Part shown: positions 21,058 through 64,000 of the stretch, piece after piece | How positions within the stretch are numbered: position 1 is the first letter of the stretch | Layout: the number at the start of each line of letters is the position of its first letter | Source of the DNA: Spiroplasma kunkelii CR2-3x | GTDB lineage: Bacteria; Bacillota_I; Bacilli_A; Mycoplasmatales; Mycoplasmataceae | Direction: 5' to 3' | Length of the DNA stretch: 64,000 bases | NCBI RefSeq assembly: GCF_001274875.1 | Contig: NZ_CP010899.1 | Span: 682,001-746,000, forward strand | Program-made: the position numbers and the translations under genes | Notes under the pieces: generated by a model | What the model was told of the DNA's origin: nothing | The model's input: the letters and a program-made list of their open reading frames with translations, nothing else | Database searches by the model: none

Positions 21058-21354
21058 TTATAAAATTTTAAAAAGTTTTCTACTGTCAATTTTTTCTAAT
21101 GATACCCCTCTCCCTCTCAAGCCAACAAAAAAACCACTTTTATATAAACAACTCGTAATATAAAAGAATTTATTATTCACATTAGTTGTCAGCGTTAAGT
21201 GAACATTATCATAAAATTTAATTTTTTCCTTTTTTAGTTTTTCTTTAATAAATGACCAAACTAAGAAATCTGGGTTAATATTGTTAAAAAACAAGTCTTC
21301 AGTACAAATAATTTTATAATCTAGTGGTTTAAAAATATTGTCAATAAAAGACAT
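21058..21354 (-). CDS. Hypothetical protein (98 aa)
   Basis: MSFIDNIFKPLDYKIICTED, then HLTLTTNVNNKFFYITSCLY and GLRGRGVSLEKID. Its ATG touches the repeated palindrome/terminator element, so its promoter must lie inside or beyond that repeat. Probably co-transcribed with 20555-21040. Not recognised. Confidence 0.5.
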   Translation of the reverse strand: MSFIDNIFKPLDYKIICTEDLFFNNINPDFLVWSFIKEKLKKEKIKFYDNVHLTLTTNVNNKFFYITSCLYKSGFFVGLRGRGVSLEKIDSRKLFKIL

Positions 21355-21420
21355 CCTGTACGATGAACCGATAAAAAAGCAACTCTTGTTAGAGTTGCTT
21401 TTTATTTGAAAAACAACTTT
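21353..21420. terminator. Repeated hairpin/terminator element, copy 2
   Basis: CATCCTGTACGATG (one change from the other copies) followed by AAAAAGCAACTC TTGTTA GAGTTGCTTTTT, a perfectly paired bidirectional terminator. It precedes leader-RNA copy A. Confidence 0.7.
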
Positions 21421-21484
21421 TGAAAAACAACTTAATAGCAGAGTGGGACATTTTTTTAAAATAACTAGGTGTTTTTTTCCACAC

Positions 21485-21725
21485 AGGCGGTCTAGCCCAG
21501 CGGTAATCAGCCTAGAAATAATAGACGCAATAAATTACGATAGTCGTGATAAACCCAGGGTTAATATCAAATGACAATAAAAATTGAGATAGTGACTTAA
21601 ATAATTAAATTTGTGAAATGTGTGGTTGGTTGGAGTTTAAAAAAAGATAGCATTCGGTCCTTCATATGTATGCAAGTAGATTTAATTTCAAAAACTGAGC
21701 GTTGCATCCCTGAAAAGAGAACGAA
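21485..21725 (+). ncRNA. Conserved structured leader RNA candidate, copy A
   Basis: About 240 nt with no ORF match clearly to 37859-38060. Shared blocks are GGTCTA-CCCA, GAAATAATAGAC, GATAGTCGTGATAA, GGTTAATATCAAA, GACAATAAAAAT, GAGATAGTGACTT and GCAAGTAGATTTA. Local hairpins include TTACGA tag TCGTGA and AACCC a GGGTT. In both places it comes after the palindrome terminator and before a gene for the same 53-aa protein. The function is unknown; a cis-leader or a free phage RNA would both fit. Confidence 0.6.
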
Positions 21726-21799
21726 AGAAGGAAAACAATATATGTCTGGTGGAAAACATAAAAATATGATTTCAGATTATTAAATAAATGGAGGTAACT

Positions 21800-21961
21800 A
21801 TGAAAAAGAAATATTGTCTTAAAAAAAGATATTGAGGTTATTGTTTTACATGTAATAAAGAAAATGAAGAAGAAATTGAAAATAGATTAGTTAAATATAC
21901 ACTTTCAGCAGATGAAATTACAGATGAACATTGAGCATTAGGTAAACAAAATTACATTTAA
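21800..21961 (+). CDS. Small Cys-pair phage protein (53 aa), intact copy
   Basis: MKKKYCLKKRYWGYCFTCNK, then a Glu-rich helix and DEITDEHWAL. Two UGA Trp codons. CxxC (CFTC) plus an upstream Cys hints at metal binding. RBS GGAGG. Homologues with internal stops lie at 38144 and 51892, so this is the only intact copy. The three share position behind the leader RNA. Confidence 0.7.
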
Positions 21962-26640: not shown

Positions 26641-26833
26641 AAACTCAATATTGTTAACATTAACGGATGACTAAACAAAACTGCCATTCTGCCAAATAAT
26701 CAAATCAACCAATTATCAGAATTATAAAAATCCATAATAATATTTTTGCTGATGTAAATTGATTAATAATAACAGTAATAAAACCAGTACCAAATATCGC
26801 AATTGCTGCCACCAATAAAACTAATTTAATCAT
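26640..26833 (-). pseudogene. SpV1 two-helix membrane protein fragment
   Basis: [20 protein letters not shown] matches the gene at 8423. A one-base deletion after SAK shifts frame, and the matching continues ([20 protein letters not shown]) to LSSLYM, where viral similarity ends. Confidence 0.7.
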
Positions 26834-26865
26834 TATTTATGCACTCTCCTATATCCTTGTTCTCT

Positions 26866-27060
26866 TGTTTTTGCATGCCTTCTGCTGTTCGTTCTACTGA
26901 TTTTGTTTTTCAAATTTCATAATCCGCTATATCTTGGAAAATACCAATTCGCATAATAAAGAAACAATTAAAAAAATTAAATTCTTTTTTAGCAACAGGT
27001 TTTTTCAATGAAATTGGAATAATAATGCCACTTGCTAACTGACGAATATTATTTCAAATC
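26866..27060 (-). pseudogene. Zot-like ATPase internal fragment
   Basis: The minus frame reads IWNNIRQLASGIIIPISLKK to WKTKSVERTAEGMQ, matching residues ~190-255 of the gene at 7040. P-loop and C-terminus are absent. Confidence 0.7.
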
Positions 27061-27065
27061 TATTA

Positions 27066-27180
27066 ATAACATTATCTTTTCCATACTTAATTACTAAGGA
27101 CCGCAAAAGAAAATAATGTTTTTTTCCATTAAAAAATCAACTCCTTTCTGAGTTGATTTGTTGCACTTCGATTACAAAAT
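27066..27180 (-). pseudogene. SpV1 small basic protein gene fragment with upstream region
   Basis: The complement gives GTAATCGAAGTGCAACAAAT, a RBS, then ATG GAA AAA AAC and a shift relative to the gene at 4919. The same insertion (reading GP stop) is found in the + copy at 32563, so both come from one viral lineage. The two copies are inverted and flank the nucleoside operon. Confidence 0.65.
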
Positions 27181-27274
27181 GCATTAAATAATAAAATGGT
27201 TATTATTCTTTAACTATTTATTTTTTATATCCAATAATTTTTTTATAATTCTTTTCTATTAATTTCACAGCATA

Positions 27275-31848: not shown

Positions 31849-32257
31849 TTTTTATTCCTCTCTTTTCCGCTTAATTTAATTACCAATAAATACCTATCAA
31901 TGCTATTTTTATTTAAAAAGTAAGGATATTTAAAAAAAACGAAAAAGAATATTGTTGCATATTCACATAAATGATGTTTAATTTTTACGATTATTTTAAT
32001 TAAAAGTTTAAGACAAATAGCAAAAATAAAACTATTTTAAATCAAATGCTATTAAACTTTTAATTATTAATTAATTTTATTATTTATTATCTTTTAAATA
32101 ATACCTCTTGATAGGATTACTGCTTTAAATTAACAACTAAAAAACGCTTTTTGACGTCTTTCAAATTATTATTTAATAGTTTTCACTAATAAATAATTAA
32201 TCATCTAACCCCAGAGATAATAACTATAAGTGCAACATTGATATTTTACCAATGTTT
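31849..32257 (-). promoter_or_regulatory. Long 5' leader between riboswitch and deoD
   Basis: About 400 nt without a gene. It holds a hairpin AACATTG / CAATGTT (32233-32256), a weaker AAAGACG / CGTTTTTT terminator-like hairpin near 32140-32165 (minus-strand T tract), and a long stem with arms AAAAGTTTAATAGCA and TGCTATT-AAACTTTT near 31995-32062. These could form the expression platform of the riboswitch. The assignment is inferred. Confidence 0.4.
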
Positions 32258-32420
32258 TTTTAGATCGGTCTACTGGCTTAGTTTCACTTTACTCACTATT
32301 CCTTCTCAAGAAATATTTTCTCAATGGAATGATGTTAGCTTTCATCCACTTTACAGGTGCTGGGTCAGCCTAGGATTCACACCTAATTCCCGTAACATCC
32401 AAAATTGCTTTTTAAAGTTG
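32258..32420 (-). ncRNA. Cobalamin riboswitch (candidate)
   Basis: On the minus strand the core reads GGGAATTAGGTGTGAATCC, then GCTGACCCAGCACCTGTAA, then GATGAAAGC, CATTCCATTG, AGAAGGAATAGTGAG, and AAGCCAGTAGACCGATC. These map in order to the Rfam cobalamin consensus: GGGAA, GGUG-AA-UCC (P5 loop), CUG-CCC-GCAACUGUAA (P6/J6-3), then the CACUG/GGAAGG arm and the B12 box AGCCAGGAGACC. P4 (GGG/CCC), P5 (TTAGG/CCTAG with wobble) and P6 (GCTG/CAGC) pair. A consensus promoter lies just upstream and deoD downstream. Confidence 0.82.
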
Positions 32421-32457: not shown

Positions 32458-32562
32458 GTTAAAATTAACAAATTATTTGTGGAAACTTAGATTAAGTATA
32501 CCGCTTTTTTCATCGTGTAATCGAAGTGCAACAAATCAACTTTGAAAGGACTTTATTTTTTA

Positions 32563-32674
32563 ATGGAAAAAAACATTATTTTCTTTTGCGGTCCTTAGTA
32601 ATTAAGTATGGAAAAGATATTGTTATTAATACTATAAATAAAATAGTAATTAATAATGAAAAAGAAAATGAATA
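32563..32674 (+). pseudogene. SpV1 small basic protein gene, frameshifted
   Basis: ATG GAA AAA AAC ... GGT CCT TAG: the frame closes after 11 codons. One base off, the protein of the 4919 gene is recognised (LLRSLVIKYGKDIVINTINK). It opens the second SpV1 copy. Confidence 0.65.
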
Positions 32675-32804
32675 AATTATCCGCGTAATTTATTAGCGTT
32701 AATTTATTCAATATAGTTTATTTTGAGCATAGCGAACACGCGAAGCGTGCTGCGATATTTTTAGAAAAGAGATGTAATATATTATTTTTAGAAGGGAGTT
32801 ATAT

Positions 32805-32953
32805 TATGCCAACTTGATTAACGACAATATTTAGTGTTGTTATTATATTATGGATTTTTGCTTAAATTGGTTTATCAAATTATCAAAAAATTAAACAAAT
32901 TCAAAGAAAGAAAAAAGAAAAAAAGAAATTGAAAGAAAGGAGGATAAAAAATA
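32805..32953 (+). pseudogene. SpV1 49-aa membrane protein gene, broken
   Basis: MPTWLTTIFSVVIILWIFA and then TAA where the copy at 5161 has TGA (Trp). A frameshift follows in the Lys-rich tail. The RBS is kept. Confidence 0.7.
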
Positions 32954-33138
32954 ATGTTAGGTATGTATTTAACAACAGCAGTTAATTTTTTAGCAAATAC
33001 ACCTAAAACTATGTCTGAGGATATGACTGGTATTTGAACTGGTTTATCTAGTGCATTATGAAAAGTTAAAGAAGATATAACAAATATTTTACCTGAGATA
33101 ATGGTTTTTTTAGGTGATACGTGAATTATTTTAATTCC
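32954..33138 (+). pseudogene. SpV1 coat protein gene, 3' truncated
   Basis: MLGMYLTTAVNFLANTPKTM to GDTWIILIP follows the gene at 5310, and then jumps at 33138 into the Zot-like gene (DDSVILFDES region), skipping about 1.9 kb present in the first copy. The frame after the joint is wrong for Zot. Confidence 0.8.
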
Positions 33139-33752
33139 GCCCCTCCTTATGATAGTGTTATTTTATTTGATGAAAGTTATTTGTATATTGATGGAACTAG
33201 TCCTCACGATGAGAAAAAAGTTCATAGTGGTAAAATACCGTGAATTGTTTTAGCGAGACATTTTGGTAATCGTGCGTTGTTTACTGCTCAGCGTGAGGGT
33301 ATGATTTTAAATAATATTCGCCAGTTAGCAAGTGGCATTATTATTCCAATTTCATTGAAAAAACCTGTTGCTAAAAAGGATTTAATTTTTTTAATAGTTT
33401 CTTTATTATGCTAATTGGAATTTTCCAAGATATAACGGATTATGAAATTTGAAAAACAAAATCAGTAGAACGAACAGCAGAAGGTAAACAAGTAAAACAT
33501 TAGTCGGATGTTGGATTAGGAATTCGGTTTTTTAAAATAATTATTCCGCTTGAATTTGCCAATAAGTATGATAGTCAATGGTTAAAATTTGTGCTTGATT
33601 AAAAAAATGATGAAATTTTTAATAAAAAAGAATATTATTGGTTGAAAATAACAAAATTGAGTGTTAAAGAGCGATTGGAGTTATTTGATATTGATATTTT
33701 GAAAAAAAATTTAAAACCTAAAAAAGAGAAAAGAAACAAGAAAGATGATTAA
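33139..33752 (+). pseudogene. Zot-like ATPase, C-terminal remnant
   Basis: Begins at Walker B (SVILFDES) and runs to the C-terminus (LKPKKEKRNKKDD) with a frameshift near 33380 and stops (TAG at about 33501, TAA near 33600). The P-loop and membrane spans are deleted. Confidence 0.8.
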
Positions 33753-34122
33753 TTTATTAGATGAAAATAATAATAGTAATTAAGACAAGATTTTTAGTAT
33801 TTTTTTTGATATATTTTTGTTTATTTTTGATGTAATTTGAAATACAAAATTACCGATGACAAATACGTCAATTGCTTATTTTTTAATATTTTTTATGGTT
33901 ATTAAATTATCGATTTATGCAATTCACGGGACATCAACACAATATAATAATTTAGGTTCAACAGTTAATAATGGTGTTTTGCAAGCATATTCATCAACCG
34001 TACGAAAAGATATTGGAATAGGTAAAAAAGTTTATCACAATAGTAATAAGCAACAAGTTAAACGAGAAATTAAACGTCAAAATATTAGACAACAAGCAAA
34101 AATTAAAAGAGGTGTTAAATAA
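33745..34122 (+). pseudogene. SpV1 membrane/basic protein gene, early ochre
   Basis: Same 126-codon frame as 8046-8423 but codon 13 is TAA where the first copy has TGA (Trp). After it, from 33856 (MTNTSIAYFLIFF), the frame is intact to TAA at 34122, including the Leu/Gln that is amber in the first copy. Reinitiation at 33856 is possible. Confidence 0.7.
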
Positions 34123-34171
34123 TGATTAAATTAGTTTTATTGGTGGCAGCAATTGCGATATTTGGTATTGG
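34122..34171 (+). pseudogene. SpV1 two-helix protein, N-terminal fragment
   Basis: [18 protein letters not shown], then a deletion joint at about 34171 into the middle of ORF1 (IDNLQYDTVLVNFF), out of frame. Confidence 0.7.
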
Positions 34172-35053
34172 TTTTATGACTGTTATATTGATAATTTGCA
34201 ATATGATACTGTTTTAGTTAACTTTTTTGCGTTAAAATTGCAAAATTTTAATAATATTTTATTGAGTGAAAATATTAATGATAAATTGCAATTTGATAAA
34301 TTATTAAATAGTATGTTTAAGATTTCACAGAAATTTTATACTAATTATTTACGAACGATTTTTGATTTATAAAATAATACTTATGTTTAAGATTATAATA
34401 AAAAATATGGTTTATTAGTAAATAATGGTTTTAAAATTTATCCACGATATTTTTATTTTTCAGATAAATATAAGCAATTAGATATTAAATTATATTCAGC
34501 ATTTAAAAATCGGTTTTATACGATTAATAATTATGGTAGTGTTTTTAATTATGATTTTTCGGTTTCTAATGATTATAATATTAAGTTAAATTCTGGTTAT
34601 GTTTTTGGTGGTGATTTACAAAATAAATATGGTTTGCAATATAAAAAAATTGAAGAACAAAAAATCGGTTATAATGTTTTTGAATTGCAAGCTCAAAAAG
34701 AGAATGATATGTATCGTTATTATGATTTTAATTTTGGGATTTATAATTGACAAGAGATAAATAGTGGTGGTTTATTCCCTGATAAGCAATGATGACAAGT
34801 ACAATATGTAACTCCCAAGGGTTGATGAGATTTTGGTGCTCATATTAAAAATGCCGTAATTTGAATTGTTAATACTATTCCGGGAGTTAAACAAGTTAAC
34901 GAGTTAGCGAGTGGTGTTGGTAAGGTTTTTGAGACAGTATATAGTTTTTTTAGTCAAATATTTGGGGTATGAAAATTTAATCCTGCGTTGTATAGTACAA
35001 TAATAAATATCTTTTTATTAATTATTTTTATGAAATTTGTGCGATTAATATAA
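34172..35053 (+). pseudogene. Plectrovirus ORF1 surface protein, C-terminal part
   Basis: Matches the 3781-2190 chimera from IDNLQYDTVLVNFF onward: FKIYPRYFYFSDKY, YVFGGDLQNKYGLQYKKIEE, GLFPDKQWWQVQYVTPKGWW, PGVKQVNELASG, and a final membrane helix IFLLIIFMKFVRLI. Two internal TAA codons (former GAA and CAA) near 34370-34388 kill it. No start. Confidence 0.75.
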
Positions 35054-37762: not shown

Positions 37763-37828
37763 ATTGCATCGTGTACGATGAAGCTCCAAAAAAACAACTC
37801 TTGTTAAAGGGTTGTTTTTTTATTTGAA
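37763..37828. terminator. Repeated hairpin/terminator element, copy 3
   Basis: GCATCGTGTACGATGAAG, then AAAAAAACAACTC TTGTTAAAG GGTTGTTTTTTT. It ends the 203-aa gene and precedes leader-RNA copy B. Confidence 0.75.
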
Positions 37829-37858
37829 AATCAATCTAACAATTTAATAGATATTTTG

Positions 37859-38060
37859 GTGGTCTAACCCAACAGTAAACAGTCTGGAAATAATAGACAC
37901 TTTAACAAGTGATAGTCGTGATAAGTCCAAGGTTAATATCAAACGACAATAAAAATAGAGATAGTGACTTTATAAATAAATTTGCGTATAGCATTAGGCT
38001 CTTCAAGGTGCAAGTAGATTTATTTTAAAAACTGAACGCTTTAACCTGAAATGGTGCGGA
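37859..38060 (+). ncRNA. Conserved structured leader RNA candidate, copy B
   Basis: Aligns with 21485-21725: GGTCTAACCCAACAG, GAAATAATAGAC, GATAGTCGTGATAA, GGTTAATATCAAA, GACAATAAAAAT, GCAAGTAGATTTA, AAAAACTGAACGC. Where copy A has TTACGA/TCGTGA, B has GTGA/TCGT, still pairable with G-U. Downstream is an extra hairpin ACAACTACAAAGTTGTAGT and the RBS of the 53-aa protein. Confidence 0.6.
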
Positions 38061-38143
38061 TGAAGAGAGATAATTCTCTGGCACAACAAAGAAAAAACAA
38101 CTACAAAGTTGTAGTCATTTTTAGTTAATTAATGGGGGTAACT

Positions 38144-38302
38144 ATGAAAAATAAAATATGTTTTAAAAAAAGATATTGAGGTTATTGTTTTAAATGTAAT
38201 CAAGAAAATAAAGAAGAAATTGAAAATAGATTGATTAAATAAACACTTTCACACGATGAAATTACTGCTGAACATTGAGCATTAAATACTAGAAAAAATT
38301 AG
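38144..38302 (+). pseudogene. Small Cys-pair phage protein, ochre copy
   Basis: MKNKICFKKRYWGYCFKCNQ as in 21800, but TAA replaces the Tyr codon TAC at about residue 35. Sense continues (HDEITAEHWALN). Confidence 0.7.
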
Positions 38303-38627: not shown

Positions 38628-39056
38628 ATGAAAATATTAAAAGATGTTATTGCGGACTTAACTAGTATTGAGGTTTAACAAGAAAAATTAAATCAATATT
38701 TAGAAAGTGAAAAATTATATTTAAAAGATGCTTATTTATATGATGCTCATTTAAGAGGTGCTGATTTAAAAGAAGCTAATTTAACTGGTGCTAATTTACA
38801 CCGTGCTGATTTATTTGGTGCTAATTTAAAAGGTACTGATTTAGGATTTGCTCATTTACGCGGTGCTCATTTACGTGGTACTAATTTAGAAGATGCTTAT
38901 TTAGGGTGTGCTAATTTATGTGGTGCTAATTTATATGTTGCTAATTTAACTGGTGTTGATTTAGCATATGCTAATTTAACTGGTGCTAATTTATGTGGTG
39001 TTAAAATCACCAAAAAACAATTAAACCAATTAACTATTATTGAGGAGGATAAATAA
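38628..39056 (+). pseudogene. Pentapeptide-repeat protein, early ochre
   Basis: A frame of 143 codons with about 20 consecutive A(N/D/H)L-x-x units (GADLKEANLTGANLHRADLF) that form a right-handed quadrilateral beta-helix. TAA at codon 17 (IEV stop QEKL) replaces GAA (copy at 52372: VTVEKQK). The C-term GVKITKKQLNQLTII is shared with the short copy. An ATG-less reinitiation seems unlikely. Function in the phage unknown; some members mimic DNA. Confidence 0.75.
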
Positions 39057-51272: not shown

Positions 51273-51338
51273 AATGCATCGTGTACGATGAAGCTCCAAA
51301 AAAACAACTCTTGTTAAAGGGTTGTTTTTTTATTTAAA
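51272..51338. terminator. Repeated hairpin/terminator element, copy 5
   Basis: GCATCGTGTACGATGAAG and AAAAAAACAACTC TTGTTAAAG GGTTGTTTTTTT, the same as copy 3. Confidence 0.75.
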
Positions 51339-51485: not shown

Positions 51486-51891
51486 AATTTTGTTTTTTTA
51501 AAACCTTAAATTTTATAAAACAACTTTAAAAATTAAATAATTGACTCTACAAGTGTTTAATTTATAATTACATATTTTTAGGGAAGGTTCCCCAACAAGG
51601 CATTTCCGCCGGCATGAAACCATTAGAGCTGTTAACTTGTTTTTTTGCGATTTTGTAAATTAATGACTTTGATTAAGATAGACGCGTAGTGGTGCATTCA
51701 TAACTATTAATTGCAAGGATAAAAATAAAATCGTGTGCGTAGAGGTTAAATAACTTTTAAGAACTGGGCAAGGATTTCTTAATTAATCTACTAGTTGGGA
51801 CTTGATGAGGAGGTACTTAATACTACAAGTAATTACAAAATGTAGAACATTGTAGTACTTTGTAGTTAATTGTAAAAAGGAGAATTTAAAA
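51486..51891 (+). ncRNA. Phage-module leader region, divergent form
   Basis: About 400 bp without a gene between the 38-aa gene and the 53-aa-type gene, the same place as leader copies A and B but with little primary similarity. It contains compact dyads (GGAAGGTTCCCC; GGCATTTCCGCCGGCATGAA) and a purine-rich end near 51790-51850, and is less AT-rich than its surroundings. A third, divergent structured RNA is possible; evidence is positional. Confidence 0.35.
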
Positions 51892-53919: not shown

Positions 53920-54662
53920 ATGATAACTGAATTACAACAATATATTAAAGGTGCAATTATTAAATATGAATTAAAAGTTAATGATAAATATTTAAAAGAA
54001 AATATTTTAGCACTTGAAGAATTAAAAACGAAAAATGGACAAAGTTATATGCAGTTAGTTAATACTGCTGATAATATAAAATTACAGCATTAAGTATTAT
54101 TAAATTAAGTAATAAATGGTTAATTTTTGGTAAGGTGAGAAATTTGAATGAGATAGTTTAAATTCATGTCCTAAAATACATGAAATTAATTTTAATGCAA
54201 ATACTAGTGATTATAATGAGATTATTGGTGCTTATGCTTTTGCAAAAGATAAAAATGGAAATTATCAAGGTATTTTATTAAGAAAAGCAGATATTGAACG
54301 ATTAAAAAATAGTAGTCCAAGTGGAAATAGTGAATATTCACCTTGAAATAAATGACCAAAAGAAATGGTTGAATAAAAATTATATCGTAAATTAGCATTA
54401 GAAATGGGAATTGATATTTCAGATATTGATTTAGATGAAAAAGAAATTAAAGAAGATGGTAATTTTGAATATATTTCATTTAAAGATATTGATGTCGCCA
54501 AAAATAAGAGGCAAATTAGCGACGAACCATTATCAAATAATAATAAATAATCCCCATCTTATCCAGAAATAGCAGACACAAATGATAATGTCGTTAAAGA
54601 AGATGATATCTCAAATGTAACACCAGTAATTAATAATAATGATGAGGATTGAGCAACTTGAT
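53920..54662 (+). pseudogene. recT: RecT-like single-strand annealing protein, broken
   Basis: MITELQQYIKGAIIKYELKV, then a stop near 54093. Later sense: NEIIGAYAFAKDKNGNYQGI, RKADIERLKNSSPSGNSEYS, PWNKWPKEMVE, TAA, KLYRKLALEMGIDISDIDLD. G-AYA, IE-LK-SPS, and SPW-x-W-x-EM are hallmark RecT segments near the DNA-binding end. A further TAA at 54548 precedes a tail ending DEDWATW. Confidence 0.75.
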
Positions 54663-55613
54663 AAAAATAGGTATTGACCCATCAGGAAATGGTACTACTC
54701 ATAAACTAGCACTTGTTTTATGTGCATTTGGACTATCTGCTTGAGCATAATCAACACCAGCAAGGATTTTATCAAAAGTTCAAGTTAATTTAGTAAATTT
54801 AAGATATTTAGCAAATACAGCACCTTGTACTTGTCCAGGTAATCCTCAACTTCATACTCTTGCTCTTGATGGTCATCTTCTTTCCTTTTCTAATTGATCT
54901 CTTACAATATCATTACTTAAATAAGTATTAAGTCTTCAACTAGAATAATGAATAATAATCTTCATATTTCATTTTTCGATATATTTAATTTGTTCATATT
55001 TACTACGCATTATTTCTTCATTAAAAGGTAATAATTCATTACAATAACCAACAATATATCTTTTTAAACTTTCAGGATTACAAGTATTAATTGTTATTTT
55101 ATTTTGATAACCACGAATAGCAAATTCTAAATCAATTAAATCTTTTTGTTGAAATTGGTCACATTCTTCTCTTCAATCAATAACTAATTTATATTTATTC
55201 AAATCAGCAAAAGCTTTTAATTTTTCTTTTCGACTTGGTGAATGTAAACCTTTACAATATATTTTGCTACCATTTGATAAAGTAAAAGTAAAATTTGATA
55301 AATTAATAGTATAAGGAATATGATTTTCATCTAACATATTTCATATATTTTGAAATACACTATCTTTTAAATCTTTACTCCAATACATACTAGCAATGAT
55401 ACAAATTCGTTGTTTAATTAATAAACTAATTTTTAATAATTCACCAAACATTTTAATATTTGAAATAGTCTTACCACTATATCGTGTTCCAATTTGATTA
55501 ATTTCATTAACTAATTCATATTTTTTAGCAAAGGGATATTTATTACCAATACTACTATTTTGTAATAACCAATAAGGAGTTTCTAACAAATAAGTAAAAT
55601 GATTAAGCATCAT
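54630..55613 (-). CDS. terL: Phage terminase large subunit, 3' truncated
   Basis: About 327 aa from ATG 55613 (GTG 55619 possible). Packages DNA into phage heads. P-loop TRYSGKTISNIK (about residue 40), ASMYWSKDLKDSVFQNIWNM, Walker B-like KLVIDWREECDQFQ, NKITINTCNPES (motif III/NP), SWGLPGQVQGAVFAKYLKFT, and the nuclease start DKILAGVDYAQADSPNAHK (GVD-Y). After VV at about 54705 the frame reads through antisense of the RuvC fragment to a stop, so most of the nuclease domain is lost. Non-functional in packaging as it stands. Confidence 0.75.
54659..54705 (+). pseudogene. RuvC-like nuclease start fragment
   Basis: TTG-initiated IKIGIDPSGNGTT right after recT: the first strand and catalytic Asp of RuvC/RNase H-fold resolvases. 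It breaks off at about 54705, where terminase DNA of the opposite strand begins. Confidence 0.45.
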
Positions 55614-56001
55614 TATCACTCTCTTTTTTAATATCTCTAATATCAGTTTGTAAATTAACTATTATTGGCTGTTGATTATTTAAGTTTAATTCTTGTTCTA
55701 ATTGTTTTTCTTGTAGTGAATATTTATAATTAAATGCTCGTTGTCAATATGTTTTTACTCCATCAGGTGTTTTAACCATTGCTTTAATTAATTCACTTTC
55801 AATTTTATCAACTTGTCGTTCAAGCAAAGGAACTATCTTTTCGCTCCGATAAATTTCTTGTCTTCAATGACGAGAAAGGTTGAATTCATTGGTTAAATCA
55901 TTCAAAGTATATGGTTTATCAGATAATTTATTTTCTCAAAATTGCTCTATTTTACGACAAAAAGTTGCTAAACTTGCAGTTTTTGGATTAAATTCTTTCA
56001 T
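55603..56001 (-). CDS. terS: Phage terminase small subunit
   Basis: 132 aa. MKEFNPKTASLATFCRKIEQ, a helix-turn-helix-like YTLNDLTNEFNLSRHWRQEI, acidic/helical middle (SEKIVPLLERQVDKIESELI), and AFNYKYSLQEKQLEQEL. Size, DNA-binding start and 8-11-nt overlap with terL fit a terminase small subunit that recognises pac/cos. RBS AAAGGAG. Three UGA Trp codons, intact. Confidence 0.65.
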
Positions 56002-56305
56002 TTTTTACTCCTTTTTGCATATTAAAATTGCTATTATTTAAACATTATGATTAAATAAAAGAGTAATAACAAACTTATCAAGAACTAAAAACGTAGCAAA
56101 ATGTATTAAAGAACTTAATATTATTTTTATTATGTTTATTTTACAATTAAAAAAAGAATTTTTCAAGTCTTTTTTGTAAAACAAGTTTTTAGAGATACAA
56201 ATTTGAAACTTGTTATACTTTAATTTTATAACTTTAAAAATAATTGTCAATAGTTTTTTAAAAAAATAGTGTATAAATAACTTTAAAAGATTGGAGATAC
56301 AATAT
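56002..56305. other. Gap between terS and IS30 copy
   Basis: Contains AACAAGTTT / AAACTTGTT arms (56180-56214) and a 28-bp motif AGAGATACAAATTTGAAACT (from 56191) that recurs in direct orientation at 57090-57118 beyond the IS30 remnant. No gene seen. Confidence 0.45.
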
Positions 56306-59180: not shown

Positions 59181-60320
59181 TTAAATAAAAATATTATTTA
59201 AGTAATATTGTTTTTGTTTTTCTAAGAAACTTAACTGTTCTTTGACTAATTCAATTTTCCTATCAATGATACTAAAAAAATGTCCAATTAAATTTTGTTC
59301 ATTTTTTAATTTTGAATTATAAAAATTAATATTTCCCATAATATTATTCATTAACTTTGGATTACCATTTTTATTTATATGTTTTTTTGCTTCTAAACTA
59401 ATTGAAATAGCAAATGAATAATTATTATAATGATCTTTTTTACCAATTAAAACTCCACAAACATTAGATGCATAAAAGTTTTCATTCACAAATCTAATAG
59501 TACCAGCATTAGCACCATCGGTTGTTCAAATAATTTTATTTTTTTCAAAAAGATAACTATTAGTTCAACCCATTATTCCGTTATTTGATGTTTGAGATGA
59601 ATATACAGGAAAAAAATTAGCTTCTTTATTTTTTAAAAGTATTTCTTTGCTTATAACACATCCTCTTTTTAATTTATAAATTTCATTAATTTTATATTTT
59701 TTTCATTCATCATTAAAGTCTTTAAATCTAATTTTTGGATAACTTTTTTCATTTGTAAACATATTCTTTAAGTAATATTGTTTTTGTTTTTCTAATAAAC
59801 TTAATTGTTCTTTAATTAATTCAATTTTTCTATCAATAATAGTAAAAAAATGTGCCACTTTTATTTGTTCACTTATTTTGGGTCACTCTTTTTTAAAAAT
59901 TCATTCAAAACTAGATAATCGTAAAGATGAAACTGTTGTTCCAACAGAAAATGTATTAAAATTTTTATTATTTTTAATAATAAAATAAAAAAGATATTTA
60001 TTTATAATTTTTGATTTATTAACAGATGTAAGTGCATAAGCTCTTTGATGTAAATCAAATTTACCGTTAAAATAAGTAGGCAAAAATGAACCTTCACCTG
60101 GTATAATAATATACTCACCATGAAAAATATATTTATTACTTCTTTTAATTTTTTCAGATCTATCAAAAAATGTATATTTACCAATTTCTAATGCATTTTT
60201 TGTATCAGATTTTCCTGTTTTAATTTTGATAATATCGTTTTTTTTAAATATTATTTTTTGAAAATTATTTTCATTAATAAACTCTTTAAATCTAATTTTT
60301 GGCACCAGAGATTTATTCAT
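59181..60320 (-). CDS. hsdS: Type I restriction-modification specificity subunit
   Basis: 379 aa, complete. Two target-recognition domains: the first begins PKIRFKEFINENNFQKIIFK and ends with helix IIDRKIELIKEQLSLLEKQK; the second begins PKIRFKDFNDEWKKYKINEI and ends IIDRKIELVKEQLSFLEKQK. So the two halves have the pseudo-dyad of HsdS with near-identical conserved helices (59190-59270 and 59765-59835). GTTVSSLRLSSFE and DGANAGTIRF are typical TRD loops. It dictates the DNA site. ATG overlaps the hsdM stop by 8 nt. Confidence 0.88.
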
Positions 60321-61866
60321 TATTAATCACCAAATCTTTTAACATTAAATTAAATTCTTCATCTAATTTTTGAATTTCTTTTTTATTATTAATTAATTTA
60401 TCTTGTAATTCTTTAATATTAATAATTTCTCTTTCTTCTGTATTATCAATATAACGAGCAATATTTAAGTTATAATCATTTTCTTTAATTATTTCTATAT
60501 CAACTAAATTAGAAAATTTATCAATAGTTTTTCTTTTATTAAAAATATTAATAATTTTAATAATATTTTCATCGGTTAAAGTATTTTTATTTCCTTGCTT
60601 TTGAAATTCTTTCGAAGCATCAATAAACAAAATTGAATTATCAATTTTACATTTTTTCATCACAATAATACAAGTTGGAATTGATGTACCATAAAACATA
60701 TTAGCTGGTAAACTAATAATAGTATCAATTCAATTTTTTTCAATCATATATTTTCTAATAATTAATTCAGCATTGCCCCTAAACAAAATGCCATGAGGAA
60801 TAACAACTGCCATTACGCCATTATCAGATAATTTATAAATCATATTTTGAATAAAAGCAAAATCAGCTTTTGTTTTTGGTGCTAATTTTCCATATGCACT
60901 AAATCTTTCATCACTTAAAAATTTTTGATTTGCCGATCAATGAGCACTATATGGCGGATTTGCAACAATTATTTCAAATTGTTGTCCTTTAAAACCATCA
61001 TCTTCTAATGTGTCACCATTATAAATATCAAATTTATTATACTTTAAACCATGCAACATCATATTCATTCTTGCTATATTATATGAATTGTTTTTTAATT
61101 CTTGACCATATAAATGACCAATTTTTAATTCTTTATATACTCTTAATAATAATGAACCTGAACCACATGTTGGATCATAAACAGTTTTAATTTCCGCTTT
61201 TCCTTGACTAACTAATTTAGATAATAATTTAGAAACAGGTTGTGGTGTATAAAATTCACCTGCTGCTTTTACTGATTCAGAAGCAAACTTACTAATTAAA
61301 TATTCATAAGCATCACCTAAAATATCAATTTCCGACTCATTAATTTCAAAATTAATTTCATTAATTTTTAACATTACTTTAGCAATTATTTTACTTTTTT
61401 CTGTTTCTGTTTTTCCTAATTTACTAGAATCTAAATCAACAGAATAAAATAAATTTTCGAATTCTTTTTCTGACAAATGACCAGTTGTTGATTCAATTAA
61501 TTTTTTAAATGCTTTTCTTAATAAGAAGATATCAAATTTTCCAATATTAATTTTATTAATTATTTCTTGTCATAAATATTCTGGTTCAATATAATATCCA
61601 GCACTATCATTATCATATAAAACTTCTAAAAAATCATTGCGATATTTTTCATTAGTTAAAGCGGTTTGATAATCAATTCCTTCTATTTTTAAATCTTTTT
61701 CTATTATAGATTGTACATTATCTGATAAATAACGATAAAATATTAATCCTAATATATACTCTTTATATTCGGATGGTTCCATTGTCCCTCGTAGAGTATT
61801 AGAAATATCTCATAATTTAGAAAATAATTGTTGTTGTTGTAAATTTTGTTTTTCATGTGTTGTCAT
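60313..61866 (-). CDS. hsdM: Type I restriction-modification methyltransferase subunit
   Basis: 517 aa, complete. The N-terminal helical domain (KLWDISNTLRGTMEPSEYKE) is followed by AAGEFYTPQPVSKLLSKLV, SAM motif DPTCGSGSLLLRV, GQELKNNSYNIARMNMMLHG, and the catalytic IIVANPPYS (NPPY, N6-adenine methylation). The C-terminal ends in a coiled coil (LQDKLINNKKEIQKLDEEF). All motifs intact, so with HsdS it should methylate. It starts 13 nt after the original hsdR stop. Confidence 0.92.
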
Positions 61867-61878
61867 AATATTTTTTTC

Positions 61879-64000
61879 CTAACTTTCAAACTCATTAATT
61901 AAATTAATTATATTTAATTCTAATTCTTTTTTTACTTTATTTTTTGCTTTTATTTTAGAAATATTTTTATTAATAGCTATTTTTTCAGTATATTGTTGAT
62001 TAATTTTTTCTCTAATTAAGTTAGAAGGCAATTGATTAATAAAACGATATTCACTAATAATTTCATTAATATCTAATTTATCTATATTATATTTTTTACT
62101 AATTTTAATTATTTGTTGTTCATATTTTTTATCACAAAATTGTTCATATAATACTTATAAATCTGCAGTATTTTTAAGAGTAGGAATAACTCTTTCAATA
62201 AATGAATTTATTAATTCTGATTTATATTTTAATACTGGATCAGTTGATTCTAATAATCCTTTTTTTATTTCTTTAATTTGTTTTTCTTTTCTTTTAATAT
62301 TGTTTAAATCTATTTTTTTTAATAATTCTAAAATATAATGAACATTAATTTTATTACTATAAATTAATTCTAGTTCAAAATCAACATCTGCTAATACAGA
62401 TAATTTTTCTTTTTTAATTTTTTCATCACTAAATGATAAATAACGAGATTTAAATTCATTATATTCATTTTCACTAAAATTATATTTACTTTGATTAATA
62501 TCAAATTCAATAAATGTTTCTAATTTTAATAATATTTTTGCTATTTCTTTAAATAAAAAAATAAATTCTTTAATTTTAACTTCGTAACCATCATTTCTTA
62601 CATCATAAGCAAAACTATAATCTTTTTTTAATTTATTCACTAACTTAATAAATTCTAGTTCATAATAATCAAATGGTTTCATTAATATTTGATCAGTAGT
62701 TATACTATTAAAAAACAATAAAATTGCTTCATCAACAGTTTTTTTAGTATTTTGATAACAAAAAATATTACCAAATGGTTTAGTAATATTTATAATTCTG
62801 TTTGTTCGTGAAAATGCTTGGATTAATTTATGATATTTTAATAATTTATCTAAATATAATGAACTAGTTAAGGGTGAATCAAAACCTGTTAAAAACATAT
62901 CAACAACAATTAATAAATTAATTTCTTTGTTTTTAACTTTCTTTTGTAAATCAATAAAATAATCATTAAATCTGCTGATATTAAAATTAGTATCAAAGTT
63001 TATATTATAATCTTTAATTATTTTTTCTAATTCTATTTTAAAAGAAAAATCTTTATTATTTAAATCTTCATTTGCTTCAAATGTAAAAATTGAAGCAATT
63101 TTTAAATTATGTTTTAAATTTTTAAATGTTTTATAATATTTAATTGCCATATTAATATTTTTAACAGCAAATATAGCATTATATTTCTTTCCGTGTGTTT
63201 TTTTTGAAAATGTTTCAATTATATTTTTTGAAATAAAGTTAATTCTGGAATCAACTATTAATAATTCATCATTATTAATATCTTCAATCAATTCATCATT
63301 AGTGTCTTTTTTATTTCTAATTAATTCCATATAGTCAACATTAAAACCTAAAACATTACCATCTGCTATTGCATTATTAAGTAAATATTTATGGATACAT
63401 TTATGAAATATATCAGCTGTTGTTCTTCCATCTTCTGATTTATTTTGTTCAAATCGTGGTGTGCCAGTAAATCCAAAATATTGTGCATGTTCGAAAATTT
63501 TTTTAATACTAACATACATTTTTCCAAATTGACTTCTATGACATTCATCAATAATAAAAATCACTTTCTTATTCTTAAATTTAGCCATTATTGATTTATA
63601 TTTTTCATTTTTACAAGCATTAGTCATTTTTTGAATTGTAGTTAATATTATTTTTTTAGTGGAATCTTGAATATTTTTAATTAAATTATAAATACTTTTA
63701 ATATAATAAACACTATATTTTTCAAATTTATTGAACTCTTCAATGGTTTGAAAATCCAAATCTTTTCTATCAACTAAAAAAAATATTTTTTCTTTTTCTG
63801 GCATATATTTTAAAATTTGACTTAATTTAAAAGAAGTTAAAGTTTTTCAAGATCCAGTTGTATTTAAAATATAAGCATTATTATTAGTTTCACTTGCTAT
63901 TTTAATAAGTTTTTCAAATGCATAAATTTGATAAGGTCTCATTATCATTAATATTTTTTTACTTTCATTAATAATCATATATCTTGCAATCATTTTGCTA
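61879..64000 (-). pseudogene. hsdR: Type I restriction endonuclease subunit, motor mutated (5' end outside window)
   Basis: The frame enters at the window edge. Helicase motifs: [12 protein letters not shown] (Q/N region), TTGSWKTLTSFK where GSGKT is expected, FIIDECHRSQFG (DECH), FTGTPRFEQ, IFAVKNINMAI, DMFLTGFDSP, IQAFSRTNR. Walker A Gly is UGA (Trp). A TAA at 62155 (after NTADL) cuts off about 90 further in-frame residues (VLYEQFCDKKYEQQ to NLINEFES, stop 61879). The N-terminal nuclease domain lies outside. Restriction activity is unlikely. Confidence 0.85.

Follow-up and report, generated by a model that had tools for sequence, protein, structure and literature searches.

The window analysed here, a stretch of 64,000 nt, belongs to a 1.51-Mb genome of the Spiroplasma type and contains three modules that are degraded prophages. 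The modules at 21 kb and 37 kb each carry a region of about 200 nt (at 21485 and 37859) followed by a gene for a 53-aa Cys-containing protein, and the 51-kb module carries a different compact region in the corresponding place (Table 1). Each module is preceded by a palindrome like CATCGTGTACGATG and a terminator (21354–21406, 37767–37821 and 51278–51330), which are possibly a prophage boundary or a regulator site. The 51-kb module reaches a minus-strand TerL-family gene (54630–55616) and a transposase fragment at 56291, in the same layout as the phage records described below. About 16 tandem copies of a 15-nt repeat are found in the 37-kb module (38689–39023). Elsewhere, the window includes long inverted repeats, 87–97% complementary and about 5–7 kb apart (26769–27181 and 32511–34186), as well as type I restriction-modification genes with HsdR, HsdM, and HsdS domains (59181–63993, minus strand). 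Its sole Rfam gathering match is a cobalamin riboswitch (RF00174, 75 bits; 32246–32417, minus strand).

Table 1. Coordinates of the RNA elements and the adjoining features in the window
Feature	Position	Strand	Remarks
Candidate -10 box ACAACTTAAT (AAYTTAAT), copy 1	21427–21436	+	6 nt before the first helix
P1	21443–21482	+	GUGGGA 21443–21448 / UUCCAC 21477–21482, enclosing an A+T-rich hairpin
Domain 2	21487–21539	+	P2a and P2b; from alignment
P2a	21490–21494 / 21522–21526	+	GUCUA / UAGAC; from alignment
P2b	21526–21530 / 21535–21539	+	one mismatch in copy 1
RNA core, copy 1	21539–21746	+	R1 match
PK1	21543–21575	+	GUCGU 21543–21547 / AUGAC 21571–21575, the latter in the P3 loop
P3	21551–21598	+	P3a and P3b
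P3a	21551–21555 / 21594–21598	+	two of five pairs broken in copy 1
P3b	21565–21568 / 21588–21591	+	UAUC / GAUA
P5	21603–21687	+	21603–21614 / 21676–21687, encloses P4; 98.4% of cells paired
P4	21650–21653 / 21670–21673	+	GCAU / AUGC; 97.4% of cells paired
PK2	21658–21732	+	UCCUUC 21658–21663 (P4 loop) / GAAGGA 21727–21732
P7	21700–21702 / 21721–21723	+	CGU / ACG; inner UCCC/GAGA with one mismatch; p 0.004
P7 and 3' hairpin P8	21700–21749	+	ends CUGG; P8 by inspection only
53-aa Cys-containing gene, copy 1	21800–21961	+	first ORF past the RNA
Candidate -10 box ACAATTTAAT, copy 2	37839–37848	+	same box as copy 1
Window copy 2	37859–38082	+	without P1, begins at P2; core 37911–38082
Copy 2 PK1	37915–37919 / 37943–37947	+	
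Copy 2 P3a	37923–37927 / 37966–37970	+	
Copy 2 P3b	37937–37940 / 37960–37963	+	
Terminator-like hairpin AACUACAAAGUUGUAGUCAUUUUU	38099–38122	+	between copy 2 and the next gene; script scan
53-aa gene of copy 2	38144–38242	+	in-frame TAA after 32 codons
Type B region, third module	51563–51829	+	from alignment; promoter-like TTGACT-16-TATAAT just upstream or at the start

The regions at 21485 and 37859 are members of one structured RNA family, referred to here as type A. Their likeness is far above chance, with 80% identity over 126 nt between 21486–21611 and 37858–37983 in an ungapped repeat search. Many additional type A copies were located in the source genome by DNA search, and further ones in related genomes by BLAST. 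A covariance model (R1) was built on 39 distinct copies; window copy 1 is itself in the alignment, and copy 2 is represented there by a near-identical relative. A search with this model yielded at least 108 copies in 8 of the 14 Spiroplasma genomes (at least 28, 24, 20, 12, 9, 9, 5, and 1 per genome). In the window, it matched copy 1 at 142.8 bits (E 1.9e-30) and the core of copy 2 at 198.1 bits (E 7e-43), the next-best match reaching only 13.2 bits. Among 296 genomes across the class, searched at stricter filters, R1 had no match outside Spiroplasma. Weak BLAST matches outside the genus were dropped, several of them (about query 98–129) lying in mnmA-like coding sequence and the others in coding-like sequence. 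A non-exhaustive motif scan of viral contigs gave a single true type A match (L122, 247 bits); the other type A motif matches in these contigs were due to chance. For the type A RNA, Rfam 15 holds no family at or above the gathering threshold. Type A is a previously undescribed pseudoknotted RNA family, absent from Rfam, and several Spiroplasma species, including insect symbionts and plant pathogens, harbour as many as tens of copies of it per genome.

The fold fitted to the alignment of the 39 distinct copies consists of ten helices, including two pseudoknots. Standard pairs occur in 95.9% of its 1736 cells, and both sides have changed in 109 cells belonging to 18 pairs. When one strand was shifted by 1–3 columns, no more than 42% of the cells were paired, and both-sided changes numbered at most 21 cells and at most 7 pairs. 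As the helices were initially picked by eye on these same sequences, three controls were run. Exhaustive ranking of 20,706 possible five-pair runs placed P3a first and PK2 second. Moreover, a phylogenetic null was generated by preserving the column substitutions and the tree while reassigning the substitutions to random branches (2000 replicates). The whole-structure score was 7.2 against -11.3 ± 2.9 under this null (p ≤ 0.0005). Individually, P3a, P6, P7, PK2, PK1, P3b, and P4 had p < 0.03 under the null; P5 and P6b did not. The most divergent copy (L036), which stands outside the alignment, kept 38 of 38 pairs of PK1, P3a, P3b, P4, P5, and PK2, and novel compensatory substitutions appeared in three of these helices (P4, P5, and PK2), its P5 and P4 stretches having been extended by eye. 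A strict per-pair R-scape-like scan of the core, low in power, gave no pair at E < 0.05, and helix pairs were three of its top four among 26,335 pairs. The same scan on the full alignment was set aside as uninformative, as the two non-homologous forms of the 5' domain are aligned there as one block. Single-sequence folding energy was unremarkable (z +1.40 and -1.08).

No plus-strand reading frame is open across the copies under code 4, and single-base indels occur among them. The type A RNA is real, folded, and non-protein-coding. An earlier note on this DNA had proposed a conserved structured RNA without coding capacity, to be given up if covariation did not go beyond phylogeny or if homologues shared a reading frame; the covariation exceeds the phylogenetic null and the plus strand has no such frame, so the proposal is now strongly supported. 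The same note had the hairpins kept through wobble changes. The hairpins are indeed kept, but the changes are often fully compensatory rather than wobble-only.

The element is longer than the start at 21485 given previously, with P1 beginning near 21443 and the RNA running to about 21749. Of 41 distinct copies spanning the type A subtypes, 37 contain the AAYTTAAT box, mostly in the form ACAACTTAAT, and the four lacking it were mostly truncated upstream at extraction; in shuffled upstream DNA it appeared in 4.8% of cases. The mapped -10 box of Mollicutes is TAWAAT, with transcription starting about 6 nt downstream (PMC5138195). P1 varies across the copies as GUGGGA/UCCCAC and GUGGAA/UUCCAC, and is absent throughout the subgroup of window copy 2. 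Domain 2 has two unrelated forms, some copies carrying a different, longer domain; P2b is found elsewhere as CGCUU/AAGCG, CGCAA/UUGCG, and CACUU/AAGUG. In the core, PK1 is paired in 97.4% of cells and changes from GUCGU/ACGAC to GUGGU/ACCAC (helix p 0.014). P3a occurs as AAGUC/GACUU, AAGUG/CACUU, and GUGUC/GACAC (p 0.0005). PK2 changes from CUCUUC/GAAGAG to UCCUUC/GAAGGA, with both-sided change in four of its seven pairs (p 0.007). P6 is an optional extra stem, in which three adjacent pairs show clear compensatory change. Many copies from other genomes additionally bear a two-hairpin 3' module (H1 and H2), which ends about 10 nt 5' of a Shine-Dalgarno sequence and whose H2 stem varies as GGCAC/GUGCC and GGAAC/GUUCC; the own-genome loci fetched showed no such module. 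One copy (L081) has the apical hairpin of H2 inverted (CUCACUCCCAAGUGAAA for UUUCACUUGGGAGUGAG) with the stem retained. The type A element is modular. Structure at the RNA level, non-coding nature, place, orientation, and association with phages are likewise established for it, and an alignment, a model, and exact pairs are available.

The two window copies differ in state. The 21-kb copy, which adjoins an ABC transporter gene, is a decaying relic, as judged from its broken P3a pairs in the R1 alignment. In copy 2, the RNA pairs are intact although the 53-aa gene is interrupted by a stop. The terminator-like hairpin AACUACAAAGUUGUAGUCAUUUUU is restricted to the copy 2 subgroup and went unreported by a stricter consensus scan. 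The RNA had been described as better conserved than several genes of its module. This fails between copies 1 and 2, where the 53-aa region is 88% identical over 164 nt and the gapped RNA core 67%, but it holds for the four prophages of the copy 2 subgroup, in which the core is 99–100% identical, the next 200 nt are 69–90% identical, and the flanks past the first gene look unrelated. The constant company of the 53-aa gene, likewise proposed, breaks down outside the window, where the first gene is any of several different small ones; the link between the RNA and the 53-aa gene is positional only. The 53-aa gene has no match in PHROGs. It resembles part of ORF 14 of the plectrovirus SVTS2 (AF133242, 4547–4662), and because of this likeness it may be able to move between unrelated Spiroplasma viruses.

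The region in the third module, which the earlier note considered unrelated-looking, is indeed unrelated to type A, yet it belongs to a second conserved family, type B. It has 18 matches in its own genome, some of them partial, and two to three in each of three other genomes. Model R1 did not match type B, so that no kinship with type A was found; Rfam gave no match either, and neither type B nor H2 motifs were detected in a scan of viral contigs. In two loci of another genome (L228 and L232, genome G002), type B is followed by the same H1/H2 module as stands after type A. Therefore, types A and B occupy the same slot, as parts of one modular leader. Its position and the shared 3' module suggest that type B is a structured RNA as well, its copies being too alike for a structure test. 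In two further loci (L229 and L233, genome G013), type B precedes a C5 DNA methyltransferase-like gene (ELFAGIGAPRRALELA), unlike the phage early operon context.

Intact type A copies reside in tailed Spiroplasma phages of about 19 kb (MaM-2019a). The same RNA is present, unannotated, in the full-length phage sequences OL689226, OL689227, and OL689230. In the phage records, it is found at one site per record, near the record end in some, and precedes a recombination operon that encodes RecT or ERF together with a RuvC-like resolvase. The first gene encodes one of various unrelated small proteins, lies 46–211 nt past the core in most copies, and usually has a good Shine-Dalgarno sequence. Most copies have no intrinsic terminator in the interval between RNA and gene, and no metabolic gene was recognised downstream. 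Nearly all copies examined keep the same orientation and place with respect to the operon. Each 53-aa gene locus fetched from the own genome bears type A or type B, one locus (L020) being rearranged. The RNA-bearing phages also carry annotated TerS, TerL, portal, and capsid genes. A packaging RNA, one of the options raised earlier, is disfavoured on this account, and one of the phi29 kind is unlikely because these phages carry terminases; at E values up to 0.5, the Rfam model of phi29-type packaging RNA found no match in the phage records that carry the RNA.

Taken together, the RNA probably either controls early virus genes or acts as a free RNA. The strongest reading, a tentative one, is that it may be a structured 5' leader controlling expression of the early operon in temperate tailed Spiroplasma phages. 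It leads because a terminator ahead of the operon is missing in most copies and the folded 3' module extends as far as the ribosome site. The order expected of a leader, a candidate -10 box, the RNA, and then a gene on the same strand, is seen in most copies. The covariation of the fold, the site before the recombination operon, the upstream -10-like box, the occurrence of H1/H2 after both types, the varied first gene with its usually good Shine-Dalgarno sequence, and the presence of type A or type B at each 53-aa locus fetched from the own genome also speak for it. Transcription would start at or just before the first helix, past the AAYTTAAT box, giving the early operon a long 5' leader of about 220–550 nt. 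This leader would fold into two pseudoknotted units, PK1/P3 and PK2/P4–P5, and in most copies transcription would read through into the first small gene. The folded leader could then set early-operon expression in cis through transcript stability, processing, or ribosome loading, with type A, type B, and the shared H1/H2 module as exchangeable leader parts. Against a leader, the near-identical RNA core amid reshuffled prophage sequence also fits a free RNA, and the copy 2 subgroup has a terminator-like hairpin before the gene. Furthermore, antitermination, the best-known mechanism of phage RNA leaders, is unsupported by operon terminators. With the alignment, the model, and the pairs to mutate at hand, it can now be tested how these prophages control their early genes.

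A free phage RNA, produced either from a separate promoter or by cleavage of the early transcript, is a serious possibility. Such an RNA would act in trans, for instance against a host function or through ROOL/GOLLD-like assembly. It is nearly as likely as a leader, because the RNA persists through changes in its neighbours, on which it does not rely. The core is near-identical across four prophages with differing flanks, the RNA is retained as the adjacent gene decays, and it occurs independently of which gene comes first. The elaborate fold with its two pseudoknots and the terminator-like hairpin of one subgroup fit as well, and GOLLD and ROOL provide a precedent for large, ornate RNAs of bacteria and phages (PMC12286853). 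On the other hand, a terminator before the operon is absent from most copies, the folded 3' module of the long copies extends up to the Shine-Dalgarno sequence, and ROOL, GOLLD, and all other Rfam families are unmatched; searched with the ROOL and GOLLD models, eight copies including their flanks (up to E 1) and two phage records gave nothing. If free, type A would be one more among the few known large phage RNAs. A broader form of this reading seems rather doubtful, namely that, in a host with few regulators, types A and B are unrelated structured RNAs interchangeable at one site of a phage group, which as free or processed RNAs do jobs that phages usually leave to proteins (early control, immunity, or takeover of the host, for example).

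RNA-based processive antitermination, in which the nascent transcript alters RNA polymerase and lets it read past the terminators of the early operon (as in HK022 put, EAR, and conAn2-like RNAs), appears improbable. A place where the early operon begins is common to put, EAR, and conAn (PMC9378689, PMC8955417), and a terminator-like hairpin directly follows window copy 2. However, no clear excess of operon-strand intrinsic terminators is seen in the phage records or the 37-kb module, with one terminator-like site in L060, none in L059, and none in the window module. Additionally, a Rho domain search found none in the host genome, the control being positive in 9 of 14 genomes.

An immunity RNA like the CI RNA of phage P4, whose loops would pair with the leader of a superinfecting phage and thereby block its early operon, is very improbable. 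The existence of two exchangeable leader types and the complementarity of the H1 loop (CCCCA) to the H2 loop (UGGG) in many copies could be read this way. By inspection, though, the complementarity of the H1/H2 loops is not kept up by compensating changes in other copies (e.g., UGCG with CCCCA unchanged in L030), the 3' module is missing from the own-genome loci fetched, and types A and B share one genome. A signal at the DNA level (for replication origin, packaging, or recombination), with inverted repeats that merely resemble RNA hairpins, is scarcely credible: the single site per phage record, close to the record end in some, and the nearby palindrome in the window would suit it, but DNA cruciforms would not be expected to show two pseudoknots with compensatory changes and interleaved pairs, and the strand and operon-relative position hardly vary among the copies examined.

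Structured leaders and large phage RNAs are already known as kinds, and no described Rfam family equals type A. Like put, EAR, and conAn2, it is a structured RNA with which an operon opens, and like put and conAn it sits on a mobile element; it differs in having no clear operon terminators to pass and no Rho. Compared with put, type A is larger and pseudoknotted, and it has no Rfam match. ROOL and GOLLD are linked to phages. Type A resembles them as a large, modular, elaborately folded non-coding RNA (PMC12286853), and differs in having no Rfam match, in being contiguous with the operon like a leader, and in being shorter in most copies. The phi29-type packaging RNA is likewise a structured RNA encoded by a phage of about 19 kb, whereas the type A phages have TerS/TerL and portal genes and no Rfam model matched. 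From riboswitch and attenuator leaders, type A is set apart by having no Rfam match, by having no recognised metabolic gene downstream, and by a terminator-like switch hairpin seen in the copy 2 subgroup only; what it shares with them is the position of a pseudoknotted 5' leader before an operon.
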